Of a stretch of DNA of 64,000 nucleotides, positions 1-64,000 are shown piece by piece; within the stretch, counting starts at the first letter, position 1, and each line of letters begins with the position of its first letter. The position numbers and the translations under genes are program-made. Under the pieces are notes generated by a model that saw nothing but the letters and a program-made list of their open reading frames with translations, searched no databases and was not told where the DNA came from. The DNA is from Clostridia bacterium. Its GTDB lineage: Bacteria > Acidobacteriota > Terriglobia > Terriglobales > Acidobacteriaceae. The stretch is taken from the NCBI GenBank assembly GCA_035561135.1, contig DATMYA010000063.1, forward strand, positions 1 through 64,000. The letters run 5' to 3'.

Positions 1-2075
1 TACCGCCTCCCATGCTGCCGCCGAACACAGCCTACGACCTGTCTCTGCAACATCCTCGCTGCGTCTTTCAATTGATGAAGCAACACTTCTCCCGATACAC
101 GCCCGAGATGGTGGAGCGCATCACGGGAATTCCTAAAGATCAATTCATCAAGGCCGCAGACACGTTCACCTCCATTCGCAAGGACGGTGACATGAAGAAA
201 GTCGGCACCATCATCTACGCCGTCGGATGGACGCAACATACGTTCGGCACGCAAATCATCCGCACGGCTGCCATGGTGCAATTGCTGCTAGGCAACGTGG
301 GGCGAGCGGGCGGTGGCGTGAATGCATTGCGCGGTCACTCGAACATTCAGGGCGCAACCGACATGGCCGGTATCTTCGACATTTTGCCGGGATACCTGAA
401 GATGCCGGTACCGGCCGATGTCGACCTGAAAACGTATCTGGCTCGCTCGACGCCAAAGAGCGCGAAACCGAAGGAGTGGGATTCGCTCAACTACTGGTCG
501 AACACCCCTGCATTCACGGTCTCTTTGCTGAAAGCGCTTTACGGCGACAAGGCCACGAAGGAGAACGACTATAACTTCCATTGGCTTCCCAAGATCGACC
601 GCAAGTACTCATGGGTCGAGATTTGGGACGACATGTACAAGGGCAAGATCAAGGGCATGGTGTCGTTCGGCATGAACGGCGTGATGATTGGGCCCGATTC
701 TCAGAAAAATATCGATGCATTAAAGAAGGCAGACTTTCTCGTCGTCTGCGAAATCTATCCTGACGAGACCAGCGAATTCTGGCGTTCTCCAGGAATCTCC
801 GCCGAGGAGATGAAGAAGATCAATACGACCGTGTACCGGTTGCCCGGTGCGGGGTTCGCGGAAAAGGACGGAACGTTCGTCAACTCCGCACGGTGGCTGC
901 AATGGAAAAACGTGGCGGTGTCTCCGCCGGGTGAGTGCAAAGTCGACCAGGAAATCCTGGCCCGGATCTTCCTCAAAATCCGCGAGAAGTATGAAAAGCA
1001 AGGCGGAAAATTTCCTGACCCGATCCTTGGGCTGGCGTGGAATTACACGAATGCGTTCAATCCGTCGCTTAGCGAAGTGGCGAAAGAGATCAATGGCAAA
1101 GCGCTTGCGGATGTGACCGACGAGAAGACGAAGACGACGATCAAAGCCGGCCAGCAGTTGCCGGGCTTTGGATTCCTGCGCGATGACGGGTCCACCCTGT
1201 CCGGCAACTGGCTCTATTGCGGATCGTGGACCGAAGCCGGCGCCCAGACTCAGCGGCGCGGGACAGACGATCCATCGGGGCTTGGTATCTATCCGAACTG
1301 GGCGTGGGCGTGGCCGATGAATCGGCGCGTACTGTACAACCGTGCTTCCTGCGACTTGAACGGCAAGCCTTGGGATTCGGAGCGACGCCAGGTCTGGTGG
1401 AGCGAAGCTCAACAGAAGTGGCTAGGCAACGACGTTCCCGATTTCAAGGTTGATTCAAACCCGAAGGATCACATGGGACCGTACATCATGAATCCCGAGG
1501 GTGTTGGTCGCCTCTTCGTGCCGCTCGGTGCTATGGCTGACGGGCCTTTCCCTGAGCACTACGAACCCATCGAGAGCCCGGTGGAGAACCCGCTTCACCC
1601 GAAGCAGTCCAACAATCCAGTCGTCAAGAAGTTCAAGACCGACATGGACAAGTACGGGACCGTGAATGATGGATTCAACATTATCTGTACCACGTACCGC
1701 CTGACTGAGCACTATCACTACTGGACCAAGAACAATCCCATGACTGTGCAGCTTGTTCCCGAGCCTTTCGTCGAGATCCCAGCGGAACTTGCGAACCAAA
1801 TGGGCCTGCGAGGCGGCGAGAAGGTCAAGGTGACGAGTGCGCGTGCGCATTATCTCGCGCGCGCCATGGTGACGAAACGCATCAGGCCGATGATGGTCGA
1901 CGGCAAAAAGCTTTACCAGATCGGAATCCCGATCCACTGGGGTTACCGAGGCATCGCAGAAGACAGGGGCAACACATCGTTGACGCCGGTAAACCTTCTT
2001 TCGCCAACTGTCATCGACCCGAATGCGTACACGCCTGAGTTCAAGGGATTCCTCGTGAAGCTCGAAAGAGCATGA
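1..2075 (+). CDS. fdnG: Formate dehydrogenase-N alpha subunit, C-terminal part (cut by left edge)
   Basis: This is the molybdopterin catalytic subunit of a respiratory formate dehydrogenase, which oxidises formate on the periplasmic side. About 690 codons are visible and the frame is open to the left edge. The family is about 1,000 residues, so roughly the first third is missing, including the Tat signal, the first 4Fe-4S cluster and the Cys/Sec active-site residue. Visible family features are the segment VGWTQHTFG followed by LLLGNVGRAGGGVNALRGH, which binds the pterin cofactor, and a C-terminal molydopterin-dinucleotide-binding domain (about residues 540-687). Beta and gamma subunits follow directly: an AAGGAGG site at 2075-2081 serves the next gene. 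Whether the active site is Sec or Cys cannot be seen here. Confidence 0.95.
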   Translation, partial: PPPMLPPNTAYDLSLQHPRCVFQLMKQHFSRYTPEMVERITGIPKDQFIKAADTFTSIRKDGDMKKVGTIIYAVGWTQHTFGTQIIRTAAMVQLLLGNVGRAGGGVNALRGHSNIQGATDMAGIFDILPGYLKMPVPADVDLKTYLARSTPKSAKPKEWDSLNYWSNTPAFTVSLLKALYGDKATKENDYNFHWLPKIDRKYSWVEIWDDMYKGKIKGMVSFGMNGVMIGPDSQKNIDALKKADFLVVCEIYPDETSEFWRSPGISAEEMKKINTTVYRLPGAGFAEKDGTFVNSARWLQWKNVAVSPPGECKVDQEILARIFLKIREKYEKQGGKFPDPILGLAWNYTNAFNPSLSEVAKEINGKALADVTDEKTKTTIKAGQQLPGFGFLRDDGSTLSGNWLYCGSWTEAGAQTQRRGTDDPSGLGIYPNWAWAWPMNRRVLYNRASCDLNGKPWDSERRQVWWSEAQQKWLGNDVPDFKVDSNPKDHMGPYIMNPEGVGRLFVPLGAMADGPFPEHYEPIESPVENPLHPKQSNNPVVKKFKTDMDKYGTVNDGFNIICTTYRLTEHYHYWTKNNPMTVQLVPEPFVEIPAELANQMGLRGGEKVKVTSARAHYLARAMVTKRIRPMMVDGKKLYQIGIPIHWGYRGIAEDRGNTSLTPVNLLSPTVIDPNAYTPEFKGFLVKLERA

Positions 2076-37244: not shown

Positions 37245-38459
37245 TCAGTCCGCTGCTATTGGTTCCGGGGCGGCGATCAAGGTGTTAACGGGGGTCGCGT
37301 GCGCGGTGCTCTTGGGTTTCGGGGCAAAGAAGCGATGCTTCAGCGCCAGGATCGGGCGTTCAAAACCGTACCAGAGCAGCGTTGCAGCTGAGATAGAGAG
37401 CACGAGGCGAACGACGACGATGGCCAGATTCCCCAACGCGCCGTACTGTTCCATGCGCGCGTCGAAAGCGCCGATCACTACGAAGACCAGAATGTGCGTC
37501 ATATAAAGTCCGTAGCTGATGGTGCCGAGAAACTTGAGCGGACGCAGCTTCAAGAAGCTGCCGTAGGCATTTGGCGATCGATTCGCGGCAATGGCCGTCA
37601 GCAGCATCCCTCCAAAACCTATCGCAAGGAACGAGTCCGTGAGCGCCCATCCGTGGAAGAGCATGATGATGGCGCCGATCACGCCCAACGCAAGCGCAAC
37701 GCGGGCAATGGTGCGCCAAGTCGATTCGGACAGGCGCGCAGAGCGCAACCCGAGTGCGATAAGCGATCCCACGGCGAGGCCGTCCAGGTGGATGAGCGTG
37801 TGGGTTGGCGTGAGATGTGCTCCGGCGAACATGCGTATCACTGGCGAGCCGATGATTACGACGGCCAGAACTGGTATTAGAAACGCCGCGCGGAAGAAGC
37901 GTGCGATGGGTGCCCACAGGATATAGAACTGTTCTTCAATGGCGAGCGACCAGGTGGGACCGACGGTGCCGGGTATCGCGATGAAGAAGAGATTCTGGAT
38001 GAACAGCAAGTAGTAGGCCCAGGGCGCGCCCTTCACTTCGTGCCAGGCCCACCAGAAGCTTCCGAAAACCAAGGGGACAACGACGTAGTTGAGCAGCAGA
38101 AGCAGAAGGTACACGGGCCAGATGCGAAGTCCGCGGCGAGCGTAAAAATTGCGGAAGAAGTTCGGCTGCTGGCGCGAGTCGGCGATGATCCCGGTGATGA
38201 GGAATCCAGAGAGAACGAAGAAAAGGTTGACGCCGACCCAGCCCCACTGCGTGATCGAATCGAGATGCAGAAATCGAAGCTTGTCGTGGCAGTGATAGAT
38301 GACAACGGCGGCGATGGCAAGCCCACGCAGGCCATCCAGTTCAGGAATATAGGACGGGAGCAGAGATTTGGAAGCCGCTGATGGCAGCGGAACAGCAACA
38401 GCGTCGCCCGCGCCTGTGAGGTCTCTGCGCGGGCGAATGGGGGTGTGAACCTGCTGCAC
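37245..38459 (-). CDS. Acyltransferase 3 family membrane protein (OafA-like)
   Basis: This polytopic membrane O-acyltransferase of 404 residues probably adds acetyl or another acyl group to a surface glycan or lipid. The signature ELDGLRGLAIAAVVIYHC with the catalytic-type His is near residue 50, followed by NLFFVLSGFLIT and, later, GPTWSLAIEEQFYI. About ten hydrophobic segments cover residues 45-380. There is no SGNH domain, so it is the short form. It starts with a GTG that shares one base with the thiG stop (TAGTG), so it may be expressed by read-through or re-initiation from thiG. The pairing with a thiamine gene has no obvious functional logic. Confidence 0.87.
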   Translation of the reverse strand: MQQVHTPIRPRRDLTGAGDAVAVPLPSAASKSLLPSYIPELDGLRGLAIAAVVIYHCHDKLRFLHLDSITQWGWVGVNLFFVLSGFLITGIIADSRQQPNFFRNFYARRGLRIWPVYLLLLLLNYVVVPLVFGSFWWAWHEVKGAPWAYYLLFIQNLFFIAIPGTVGPTWSLAIEEQFYILWAPIARFFRAAFLIPVLAVVIIGSPVIRMFAGAHLTPTHTLIHLDGLAVGSLIALGLRSARLSESTWRTIARVALALGVIGAIIMLFHGWALTDSFLAIGFGGMLLTAIAANRSPNAYGSFLKLRPLKFLGTISYGLYMTHILVFVVIGAFDARMEQYGALGNLAIVVVRLVLSISAATLLWYGFERPILALKHRFFAPKPKSTAHATPVNTLIAAPEPIAAD

Positions 38460-39229
38460 TAGCGCGACACTCCCTCAACAGGAGAGCTGGCCGTGGCGTA
38501 AAGTTTTTTAGGCATGCGGCCGGCCGAGTAGCCCAAGCGTCCGGCAATGACAGCGTGCTTCATGGCGTCGGCCATGGTGACGGGATCCTTGGCACCGGCG
38601 ATGCCGGTGTTCATGAGGACGGCGTCATAGCCGAGTTCCATTGCGAGCGTTGCGTCCGACGGCGTGCCGACTCCGGCATCGACCACGAGAGGCACGGTGG
38701 TAATCAGTTCGCGCAGAATGCGCAGGTTGGCGACGTTTTGTATGCCGAGGCCGCTGCCGATTGGAGCTCCGAGCGGCATGATGACAGAAGCACCGGCGTC
38801 GAGCAGGCGAAGCGCAACGACCGGATCATCGCTGGTGTAAGGCAGTACAGTGAAGCCTTCCTTCACAAGAACCTTGGTGGCTTCGATCGTGGCCGAAACG
38901 TCGGGATAAAGCGTCTTCTGGTCGCCAATGACTTCGATTTTGACCCAATCGCTCAGTCCAACTTCGCGGCCCAGGCGCGCAGCGCGGATTGCTTCATCAG
39001 CCGTATAGCAGCCAGCAGTGTTAGGCAGCAGAAAGTACTTCTTGGGATCGATGAAGTCGAGCAGTGATTCCTTGCTGCGGTCCAGATTGACGCGGCGGAC
39101 GGCGACGGTGACCATCTCTGCGCCGCTGGCGGCGATGGCAGCGGCCGTTTCAGGCCCGTCCTTGTACTTGCCCGTTCCGACGATCAGGCGCGAGGAGAAT
39201 GCCTTACCTGCAATTACCAATGAGTCCAT
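38459..39229 (-). CDS. thiG: Thiazole synthase
   Basis: This TIM-barrel enzyme makes the thiazole phosphate of thiamine from deoxyxylulose 5-phosphate, ThiS thiocarboxylate and dehydroglycine. Its 256 residues show the start [10 protein letters not shown], the Schiff-base lysine K97 in [21 protein letters not shown]-type [18 protein letters not shown], and [12 protein letters not shown] with [13 protein letters not shown]. The sulfur carrier ThiS, ThiF and ThiH or ThiO are not adjacent. No TPP riboswitch-like sequence was seen upstream, only the AT-rich repeat. Confidence 0.95.
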
Positions 39230-44877: not shown

Positions 44878-45221
44878 TTCGCAGCCTGCGTTGTACGATT
44901 CGCCCGAGATCCCGACCAGCAGCTGCCAATGTTTTTGCGCCAGCTCGGAGAGCATGGCTGCGCGGATAGCGCGCGCTACGTGGCGGCCCATCGTCGAGTG
45001 CAGCATGTCAATCGTGACCGGGCGGCCGGCAACGCTGGAAATCGTGCGCAGCGCCGCGCCGGTCCACTTCTTCGTGAGCGGATGTCCCTGGTGCGTAGCC
45101 GATAAGAACCTGCGCGAGCGGACCAACCTGCATCGCCTAACCGTGAATTGGAAGGCGTACTTCGTAGGCAAGGGACAGGTCACTGCCTGTCGCTTGTTGC
45201 TCCTGAAGGGTGCAGAATTGG

Positions 45222-60983: not shown

Positions 60984-62633
60984 CTAGCCCAGGTTAAGCG
61001 TCGGGAGATACGTTGGCGCTTTGCGCATCTTCGTCGACTGTTCGTAGGCATAAGCGACCTTGATCAGCACAGGTTCGCTCCAGGCGCGTCCGAAGAAAGA
61101 AACTCCTATCGGTAGCCCGAAGATGAATCCCATCGGCACATTGATGTTGGGGTAACCAGCGACGGCGGCCAGACTGGTGCTGCTGCCGGTGAAGTGATCT
61201 CCGTTGACCAGATCGGTAGGCCAGGCTGCGTTCCCGGTCGGTGCGACCAGCGCATCCAGTCGATGCTTGTCCATAACTGCGTCGATGCCCTCCTGGCGCG
61301 AAAGGCGTCGACAGTCGGCAAGGCTTTTCAGGTAGTCAGGAGTTGTGAGCGGCCCTTTGGCTTCGGCCAGCGCCAGCATTTCCTGTCCGAAGTATCGAAG
61401 CTCGCGCTCGCGGTTCTTTTCGTTGAAGTCGATCAACTCCTTCAGCGTGTGGACGGGCGAATTGGAACCAAGGGTTGCGAAGTAGGCATTCAGACCGGCC
61501 TTGAACTCGTAGAGCATCACCTCGAGTTCCGCATCATCAAACTTGCCTATTGTTGGAACATCGGCAGGGTCGATGATCTCCGCGCCAGCGCGCTTCATCG
61601 CCGTGATCGCCTCTTCGAAAACGAGATCGAGCGGAATGCTGTAACCGGCGTACTTGCGTACCACGCCGATGCGTGCGCCACGCAACCCGCTGGGGTCGAG
61701 GAATCGGGTGTAGTCCTGTTCGATCCTGGCCCGCGCAGCTTCCGTGGCATTGTCCGCAGGGTCAACCGCTGCAAGAATGCTCAGGAGTGCGGCGGCATCG
61801 GCGACGGTGCGCGTCATGGGTCCGGCGGTGTCCTGCGTGTGAGAAATTGGGATGATGCCGCTGCGCGATAGCAGCCCGACCGTGGGCTTGATGCCGACGA
61901 TTCCGTTCGAGCACGCCGGTGAGACGATGGAGCCATCCGTCTCCGTGCCCACCGCCAGCGCGCAGAGATTCGCGCTAACCGCCACGGCGGAACCGGAACT
62001 CGATCCCGAAGGGTTGCGGTCGAGCACGTAGGGATTACGCGTCTGGCCCCCGCGTCCGCTCCAGCCGCTGGTCGAGCGCGTAGAACGGAAGTTTGCCCAT
62101 TCGCTGCAATTCGTCTTACCGAGGATCACCGCTCCGGCTTCGCGCAGCCGCGCTACCACAAACGCATCTTTCGGCGGCTTGGAGCCCTGAAGCGCCAAAG
62201 ATCCGGCGGTGGTTTGCATCTTGTCCGCGCTGGCGATGTTGTCTTTTATAAGGATAGGGATTCCATGCAGAGGGCCGCGAACCTTGTCGGCCCGGCGCTC
62301 CTGGTCGCAACGATCGGCGATTGCCAAGGCATCGGGGTTGACCTCGATGACGGAGTTGAGCGAAGGCCCATGGCGGTCGATGGCATCGATGCGCGCGAGG
62401 TACTTCTGGGCCAGCGCCCGCGCAGTGTACTTCCCTGAGTCCAGCCCCTTCCGCAAATCATGCAGGCTTATCTCGTCCAGCTCAAAGCTGCCGGGCGTTG
62501 TTCTTTGCGCGGTTTGAGCGGATAGCAGTTCGGGAAACACGACAGCACCGGCGGCTCCGGCCACACTGGCTTTCAAAAATGTTCTTCGGCTATCGGCGAC
62601 AGGAACTGCACCCTTCTCGTTCTTCATCGTCAC
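60984..62633 (-). CDS. Tat-exported amidase-signature hydrolase
   Basis: This 549-residue amidase has a twin-arginine signal (SRRTFLKASVAGAAGAVVFP, residues 15-34), so it is folded before export. The amidase-signature triad is K130 in GIPILIKDN, with the serines of the NPSGSSSGSAVAVSA and TDGSIVSPA segments. The insertion PLHGIP and the long C-terminal lobe fit the GatA/fatty-acid-amide/peptide-amidase group. Since it is exported, it is not the tRNA-dependent GatA. Start: GTG at 62633 lies 5 bases after GGAG; an in-frame ATG at 62627 is an alternative. Substrate unknown. Confidence 0.88.
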   Translation of the reverse strand: MTMKNEKGAVPVADSRRTFLKASVAGAAGAVVFPELLSAQTAQRTTPGSFELDEISLHDLRKGLDSGKYTARALAQKYLARIDAIDRHGPSLNSVIEVNPDALAIADRCDQERRADKVRGPLHGIPILIKDNIASADKMQTTAGSLALQGSKPPKDAFVVARLREAGAVILGKTNCSEWANFRSTRSTSGWSGRGGQTRNPYVLDRNPSGSSSGSAVAVSANLCALAVGTETDGSIVSPACSNGIVGIKPTVGLLSRSGIIPISHTQDTAGPMTRTVADAAALLSILAAVDPADNATEAARARIEQDYTRFLDPSGLRGARIGVVRKYAGYSIPLDLVFEEAITAMKRAGAEIIDPADVPTIGKFDDAELEVMLYEFKAGLNAYFATLGSNSPVHTLKELIDFNEKNRERELRYFGQEMLALAEAKGPLTTPDYLKSLADCRRLSRQEGIDAVMDKHRLDALVAPTGNAAWPTDLVNGDHFTGSSTSLAAVAGYPNINVPMGFIFGLPIGVSFFGRAWSEPVLIKVAYAYEQSTKMRKAPTYLPTLNLG

Positions 62634-62950
62634 GTGAGCTCCTTTTCAAACAAGGAAGATTATTCTCTTTGCGCAATCCTAGCTACTTCGGAATTCGCTT
62701 CCGCTGCAAAAGTGCGCAGGTGAAGACGGAGTGCATTCGCGACTATAAGAATTTTGCGCGCATTGGCAGTTCCGCAATTAACATTCGATAAAGAAGAGAG
62801 TATGCCCCCGCCGTCGGCCGAAGTACCACCACAGTCTTCGGTATCGATGCGCGAGTTGGGATCAACACCGGTAGGCCGCCAAGCGATGGCCGAGTCGAGT
62901 AAGCGTGCGCTTGCATTTTCGGCGCAGCACCACAGACAGAAGGGTAGACA
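62634..62950. other. Intergenic region upstream of hydG
   Basis: These 317 bases lie between divergent genes. The only feature I could support weakly is a short plus-strand frame (62802-62966). I saw no FNR-type TTGAT-N4-ATCAA site that would indicate oxygen control. Confidence 0.5.
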
Positions 62951-62966
62951 GTGCAGAAGGAAGTGA
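62802..62966 (+). CDS. Possible 54-residue small protein overlapping hydG
   Basis: The frame starts MPPPSAEVPPQSSVSMREL after AAGAAGAGAG and ends with a basic tail (HHRQKGRQCRRK). Its stop lies 16 bases inside hydG, so it could act as a translational-coupling leader. There is no recognisable domain. It may equally be a chance frame; codon use is not decisive at this length. Confidence 0.25.
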   Translation: MPPPSAEVPPQSSVSMRELGSTPVGRQAMAESSKRALAFSAQHHRQKGRQCRRK

Positions 62967-64000
62967 AAGCGCAGTTCATTGATTCAGAACAGATCGACAA
63001 AACTCTAGTGCAGTCGCAAGCAGTCGACAACGCTTGCGTGCGCGACATCCTGGCGAAGGCGAAAGAGCTTCATGGGCTGGAGATGGCCGAGGTAGCTGCT
63101 TTGTCGGCGGTCACCGATCCGGGCTTAATTGAAGAGATGTTTGCCGCGGCGCGCCAGGTCAAGCAAGAAATCTACGGTTCGCGGCTGGTGCTCTTTGCGC
63201 CTCTTTACGTGTCCAACCGTTGCACGAACGAGTGCACCTATTGCGCTTTCCGCGCGCGAAACCAGGAAGTTACGCGCAGGACCCTTACGCAGGATGAGAT
63301 TGCGGCCGAGATTCGCGTCCTCCTCGAGCAAGGACACAAGCGCGTACTGCTGGTCGCCGGTGAATCGTATCCAGACAAAGAAGGCTTCAACTATGTTTTG
63401 AAATCGGTGGACACGATCTACAAAACGACCACCGGGCGCGGCGGAATTCGACGCGTGAACGTCAATGTCGCACCGCTTACTGTTGAGCAGTTCCGGGAAC
63501 TGAAAGCAGCCGACATCGGTGCATACCAGATCTTCCAGGAAACATACCATCGTGAGACTTATGCGCGCGTGCACGTGGCAGGAATGAAGCGTAACTACGA
63601 TTGGCGCGTCACGGCAGTGGAGCGGGCGATGGAAGCCGGCATTAGAGATGTTGGCATCGGGCCGCTCTTCGGCCTTGCGGACTGGCGCTATGAACTGCTG
63701 GCGCTGATGCAGCATATCCATCATTTGGAGTTGCGTTTCGGCTGTGGTCCGCACACGATCAGCGTGCCGCGACTTGAACCCGCGGTGGGCTCAGAGGTCG
63801 CAAGCCATCCGCCACATGCGGTGAGCGATGCCGATTTCCTGAAGATCATCGCTATCCTGCGGCTGGCCGTCCCGTCCACAGGCCTCGTGATGTCCACGCG
63901 TGAGTCTGCGGAGATTCGCCGCAAGAGTTACCAGATCGGCATTTCGCAGACATCGGCGGGTAGCCGCACTGACCCGGGCGGATACGAAGAGGTAGAGGGC
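62951..64000 (+). CDS. hydG: [FeFe]-hydrogenase maturase HydG, radical SAM (cut by right edge)
   Basis: This radical SAM tyrosine lyase makes the CO and CN ligands of the H-cluster. 350 codons are visible and the frame is open at the right edge; HydG is about 430-480 residues. The SAM cluster motif is C91-x3-C95-x2-C98 (CTNECTYC), inside LVLFAPLYVSN. Then come GHKRVLLVAGE, RRVNVNVAPLT, IFQETYHRETYARVH, DYxWR-like NYDWR, GPHTISVPRLEPA, AIRLAVPSTG-like ILRLAVPSTG and GISQTSAGSRT, all typical of HydG rather than ThiH. The C-terminal auxiliary-cluster domain lies outside. Start: GTG at 62951 after AAGGG; an in-frame TAG at 62945 excludes anything longer. Confidence 0.9.
   Translation, partial: MQKEVKAQFIDSEQIDKTLVQSQAVDNACVRDILAKAKELHGLEMAEVAALSAVTDPGLIEEMFAAARQVKQEIYGSRLVLFAPLYVSNRCTNECTYCAFRARNQEVTRRTLTQDEIAAEIRVLLEQGHKRVLLVAGESYPDKEGFNYVLKSVDTIYKTTTGRGGIRRVNVNVAPLTVEQFRELKAADIGAYQIFQETYHRETYARVHVAGMKRNYDWRVTAVERAMEAGIRDVGIGPLFGLADWRYELLALMQHIHHLELRFGCGPHTISVPRLEPAVGSEVASHPPHAVSDADFLKIIAILRLAVPSTGLVMSTRESAEIRRKSYQIGISQTSAGSRTDPGGYEEVEG

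Follow-up and report, generated by a model that had tools for sequence, protein, structure and literature searches.

What a HydG does in a genome that holds no [FeFe] hydrogenase is the question raised by the gene that begins at position 62951, at the right edge of the window (the whole 64,000-nt stretch of DNA that was analysed). The literature knows of no function of the maturases outside hydrogenases (PMC9161772), and an earlier sequence-only reading of this DNA was in line with it in giving H-cluster maturation as the sole known role of HydG. It is because the maturases are thought to lack such a role that an orphan HydG is of interest.

The gene is read from a GTG start on the plus strand to contig position 64354 and encodes a product of 467 amino acids; its first 350 codons lie in the window, and the remainder is found further along the contig (C62, 78,667 bases). 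The features of the locus are as follows.

62951–64000, plus strand: hydG, first 350 codons (TIGR03955, 527.6 bits, cut-off 312)
62938–62944, plus strand: Shine-Dalgarno-like AGAAGGG ahead of the hydG GTG start, by sequence resemblance only
63221–63244, plus strand: radical-SAM CX3CX2C cluster motif CTNECTYC, hydG residues 91–98, read from the sequence
63521–63523, plus strand: hydG Ala191, which is Thr in 107 of 107 other HydGs and Val in both other orphans
63752–63754, plus strand: hydG His268, conserved, at the alignment position of the labile-iron ligand in the solved HydG
63875–63877, plus strand: hydG Ser309, which is Tyr in 107 of 107 other HydGs
63896–63901, plus strand: hydG Thr316-Arg317, tyrosine-binding (ThiH T299/R300), conserved
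60984–62633, minus strand: amidase (PF01425) upstream of and divergent from hydG, bearing an apparent Tat signal and with no hydrogenase link

The HydG identity of this open reading frame is genuine and far beyond chance. Against TIGR03955, the HydG equivalog profile, which also matches ThiH, the product reached its 527.6 bits over profile positions 9–468 of 470, and against the ThiH profile TIGR02351 it reached 307.9 bits, under the curated cut-off of 380. The AlphaFold2 model of the product (mean pLDDT 89, pTM 0.91) matched the T. italicus HydG structure 4WCX over the full length with a TM of 0.93–0.96 (46% identity in the fold alignment), and ThiH with a TM of only 0.70–0.89. With this profile score, the CTNECTYC motif, and the fold match, the earlier call of a HydG carrying a radical SAM motif was confirmed. 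At the same time, the loss of the C-terminal auxiliary-cluster domain feared in that reading did not materialize, as the CX2CX22C motif is present past the window edge (C382, C385, and C408, spacing 22) and the fold is full length in the model. The labile-iron-type histidine, H268 in GPHTISVPR, is present in all 107 other HydGs compared, and its counterpart in the solved protein is the ligand that we take to be His265 of T. italicus HydG. All of the mapped residues named as tyrosine-binding for ThiH and HydG (ThiH T299, R300, R306, S318, and S321; PMC9046217) are present in the product as T316, R317, R323, S335, and S338. The protein is therefore like the known HydGs (TIGR03955; 4WCX, 4RTB) in both cluster motifs, the tyrosine-site residues, the labile-iron histidine, and the full-length fold; it differs from them in its T191A and Y309S changes and in a host genome without HydE, HydF, or [FeFe] hydrogenase.

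These three partners had been predicted to exist, possibly just downstream. Extension of the contig to the right completed hydG and then led into a convergent cheX/cheY chemotaxis operon, with no partners; hydG stands alone between this operon and the divergent amidase, and no remnants of hydA, hydE, or hydF were found on the contig that carries it. A profile search of the whole host genome (4.19 Mb in 95 contigs, rated 100% complete and 1.5% contaminated) did not find the [FeFe] hydrogenase catalytic domain PF02906. Likewise, nothing in this genome exceeded the HydE cut-off of 254.6, the top match being hydG itself at 64 bits, or the HydF cut-off of 325.6, for which only other GTPases were obtained, at ≤ 92.8 bits. 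The PF02906 search works, since it was positive in 43 of 50 genomes, and weak matches in other genomes reached ~30 bits. With HydA, HydE, and HydF absent, [FeFe] metabolism is not to be inferred for the host organism; the sequence-only reading had itself named this absence as the finding that would count against it, and for the host genome such metabolism is refuted. Matches to FNR-type boxes near hydG were no more frequent in the window than expected by chance, and a promoter and terminator scan at hydG gave nothing above shuffled sequence. At the left edge of the window, a formate dehydrogenase alpha subunit (1–2075, plus strand) has its N-terminal part cut by the contig start, and the Sec/Cys region lies outside the window.

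Elsewhere in the phylum, HydG accompanies a hydrogenase. It was found in 45 of 297 genomes of the phylum, and 43 of these 45 have PF02906, the exceptions being the host genome and G016. The latter was considered as a fourth orphan and rejected, as hydE and hydF accompany hydG on its 4.6-kb contig, where the locus is truncated by the contig end. At the family level, HydG occurs in five of 300 genomes, three of which are without PF02906, namely, the host genome, G322, and G378. G322, which is almost certainly Koribacter versatilis Ellin345, is one closed contig of 5,650,368 bases rated 100% complete, and G378 belongs to the same genus; in both, the partner search was for HydA (PF02906) only. The group-1 [NiFe] hydrogenase at 5.03 Mb in G322 is consistent with locus Acid345_4240, reported as a group 1c [NiFe] hydrogenase of Koribacter versatilis Ellin345 (PMC5900883). 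Since the closed G322 has HydG and no PF02906, the HydA-less state is real in the family and not only a draft gap. Moreover, hydG stands at the same, otherwise unrelated, locus in G322 and G378, near the gene for a WXXGXW-repeat protein, dnaE, and accA (dnaE and accA as identified by eye); hydG was thus already alone before these genomes split. In G521 and G427, of the same family, hydG has its usual neighbours hydA, hydF, and hydE in one cluster. The G521 cluster (L127:6340–15543) comprises an NADH-dependent group A6 [FeFe] hydrogenase, hydG, hydF, hydE, a second PF02906 protein, and a further downstream open reading frame. Literature searches turned up no paper that describes a HydG of this orphan kind or deals with the HydG of Koribacter.

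The six HydGs of the family, with and without a linked hydrogenase, group in a single clade (bootstrap 100, SH-aLRT 96). The orphan HydGs are native, as they group with those HydGs of the family that are linked to a hydrogenase, and this membership, together with a hydG composition equal to that of the window (G+C 0.584 versus 0.585), disfavours contamination or recent import. Monophyly of the orphans was not rejected (p-AU 0.34), and the tree is compatible with one loss or two. The two Koribacter orphan hydGs are under strong purifying selection, with a dN/dS of 0.062 (G322 versus G378) next to 0.060 for the similar pair G521 and L047, whose lineage has the full hyd operon, dS being near saturation in both cases. 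Within the Koribacter orphans, pN/pS was 0.145 for the C-terminal cluster domain and 0.147 for the barrel; the former is thus as constrained as the latter, which suggests a continuing need for the part of the enzyme that makes CO/CN and is absent from ThiH. These selection figures come from the Koribacter pair, since no sister species of the host carrying hydG was found; the host hydG itself is full length, has no stops or frameshifts, and stands on an ordinary terminal branch (~0.3).

In the reference set of 107 other HydGs, 83 alignment columns never vary. Note that peptide patterns taken from the host HydG served to find some of these 107, which introduces a bias near KDFMDLAK (residue 396) and not at residues 191 or 309. 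The host hydG keeps 81 of the 83 invariant residues and departs by T191A and Y309S, and only one of the 107 controls has two or more departures: leave-one-out comparison gave no private departure in 95, one in 11, and four in one HydG on a very long branch. These two changes are insufficient to exclude HydG membership. The Koribacter orphans have five and eight departures at the same columns, and CX2CX23C in place of the usual CX2CX22C. Residue 191 departs in all three orphans (a three-way overlap that is not significant alone, ~0.12 by estimate), and I313V, at a position almost invariant elsewhere, is common to the three; the tyrosine-site residues, cluster cysteines, and labile-iron histidine are retained in all of them. 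In the model, a barrel strand begins at residue 191, and 191 and 311–314 are predicted to lie on barrel strands; judging from the strand register and the ThiH/HydG alignment, these positions would be further down the barrel than the tyrosine site, on the side of the lower cluster, and the departures of the orphans from invariant residues could reflect an altered second half-reaction. In the same alignment, at host residue 172, nine of the 107 HydGs have Glu, and not Asn, where ThiH has the carboxylate-binding E158.

The orphan genes are probably best explained as encoding a HydG retained in a hydrogenase-independent role. A full-length HydG would have been kept after the loss of HydA, HydE, and HydF, and we infer that it is most likely still active in vivo. 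Its radical-SAM site would split L-tyrosine into p-cresol and dehydroglycine, the dehydroglycine would pass down the barrel to the C-terminal [4Fe-4S] and labile-iron site, where it would be converted to CO and CN− (or an Fe–CO–CN unit), and the product would serve something other than the H-cluster. The most economical acceptor would be the Fe(CN)2CO group of [NiFe] hydrogenases. Large subunits of these enzymes are encoded in all three orphan-HydG genomes, and in the host genome there are two [NiFe] hydrogenases of a group-3-like type, together with hypD, hypF, and a hypE-like gene.

L151:4543–10387, L152:17786–20000, and L153:938–8292 (host contig C18): two group-3-like [NiFe] hydrogenase clusters

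One of these clusters has a 1053-aa fusion resembling NuoF and glutamate synthase, and the other has the hypD, hypE-like, and hypF genes. A 2025 review regards the origin of the CO in [NiFe] cofactors made under anoxia as unsettled and allows for several sources (PMC12134894). Under oxygen, the CO supplier for [NiFe] hydrogenases is HypX (PMC12134894), an unrelated enzyme that uses formyl-tetrahydrofolate and with which the orphan HydG would share a role only if the speculation about CO supply is right; no HypX-sized formyltransferase open reading frame was found in the 14 family genomes tested, the host and its relatives. CO donation to [NiFe]-hydrogenase maturation is the most interesting candidate acceptor, with dehydroglycine for thiazole synthesis as its main rival. 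As a proposal, [NiFe] CO supply is speculative and doubtful, and its specific form, in which the orphan HydG gives tyrosine-derived CO (or Fe–CO–CN) to the HypCD scaffold in anoxic Koribacter-like acidobacteria, is rather unlikely. The presence of HydG in only five of 300 family genomes means that it is not the general CO source of [NiFe] hydrogenases.

The main rival, itself improbable, is that the orphan HydG works like ThiH (2-iminoacetate synthase; TIGR02351, 7PD1) and supplies dehydroglycine (2-iminoacetate) to ThiG when oxygen is too low for the glycine oxidase ThiO. The window does contain thiG.

38459–39229, minus strand: thiG (PF05690, 360 bits)

The host genome has no ThiH, as hydG is the sole match to the HydG profile by which ThiH would also be matched. 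The tyrosine-lyase barrel and the conserved residues that hold tyrosine are common to ThiH and the orphan HydG, and the unusual residues of the orphans map to barrel strands that separate the tyrosine site from the lower cluster. However, ThiO is over its cut-off in both the host genome and G322, the host protein scores under the ThiH cut-off, and ThiH lacks the C-terminal auxiliary-cluster domain, which has no use in the work of ThiH but is as constrained as the barrel in the Koribacter orphans, with its cysteines kept. As for genomic context, thiG stands apart from other recognisable thiamine genes, and ThiO is encoded on host contig C53.

It is quite improbable that hydG is a relic, decaying without function after recent loss of the hydrogenase system. 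Hydrogenase genes do decay here, as follows from the remains of a group-1 [NiFe] large subunit, broken by a frameshift, on the same contig.

44914–45196, minus strand: group-1 [NiFe] large-subunit scrap (58 aa, 65% identity to the G427 protein)

The pieces adjoining this scrap are broken by a frameshift and a stop, this hydrogenase having been lost from the window. The departures of the host hydG at two otherwise invariant positions would also fit decay, but its intact full-length frame and ordinary end branch, the absence of hydA, hydE, and hydF scraps from the contig, and the strong purifying selection on the Koribacter orphans at their conserved locus all speak against it.

An assembly gap, with hydA, hydE, and hydF elsewhere in the genome and missing from the draft, is very improbable. 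The draft is in 95 contigs, and HydG often stands apart from its partners, none being near it in 32 of 80 related hydG loci within the stretch available for each. Nevertheless, the completeness is rated 100%, three absences are required unless one three-gene cluster was lost, and the closed G322 genome shows the HydA-less state to be real. Locus L077, from an Acidobacteriota MAG (65% identity), was considered as a candidate orphan: its 11.2 kb encode no HydA, HydE, or HydF, but its residues at 191 and 309 are canonical. In L077 (1344–2960) and L128 (10299–11795), the genes adjoining hydG are homologous (74% identity) and aspartase-like by eye; proteins of ~470 aa, also taken for aspartase by eye, recur in 24 HydG loci. 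Finally, a protein with an H-cluster-like cofactor, unrecognised because it is too diverged for PF02906, would give HydG a conventional purpose but is extremely improbable, given that nothing of the kind came up in the genome search, that HydE and HydF, the builders of such a cofactor, are absent from the host genome, and that PF02906 is sensitive enough to have given the weak matches noted above.

HydG is commonly taken to signal an [FeFe] hydrogenase. A conserved orphan in the lineage of a sequenced isolate is an exception to this rule and warns that [FeFe] metabolism is not to be called from HydG alone. The orphan HydG appears to be carried by a cultured lineage, in which a further use of biological CO/CN− synthesis can be put to the test. 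If the orphan HydG does supply the HypCD scaffold, these organisms would have met their need for CO under anoxia by radical-SAM chemistry.
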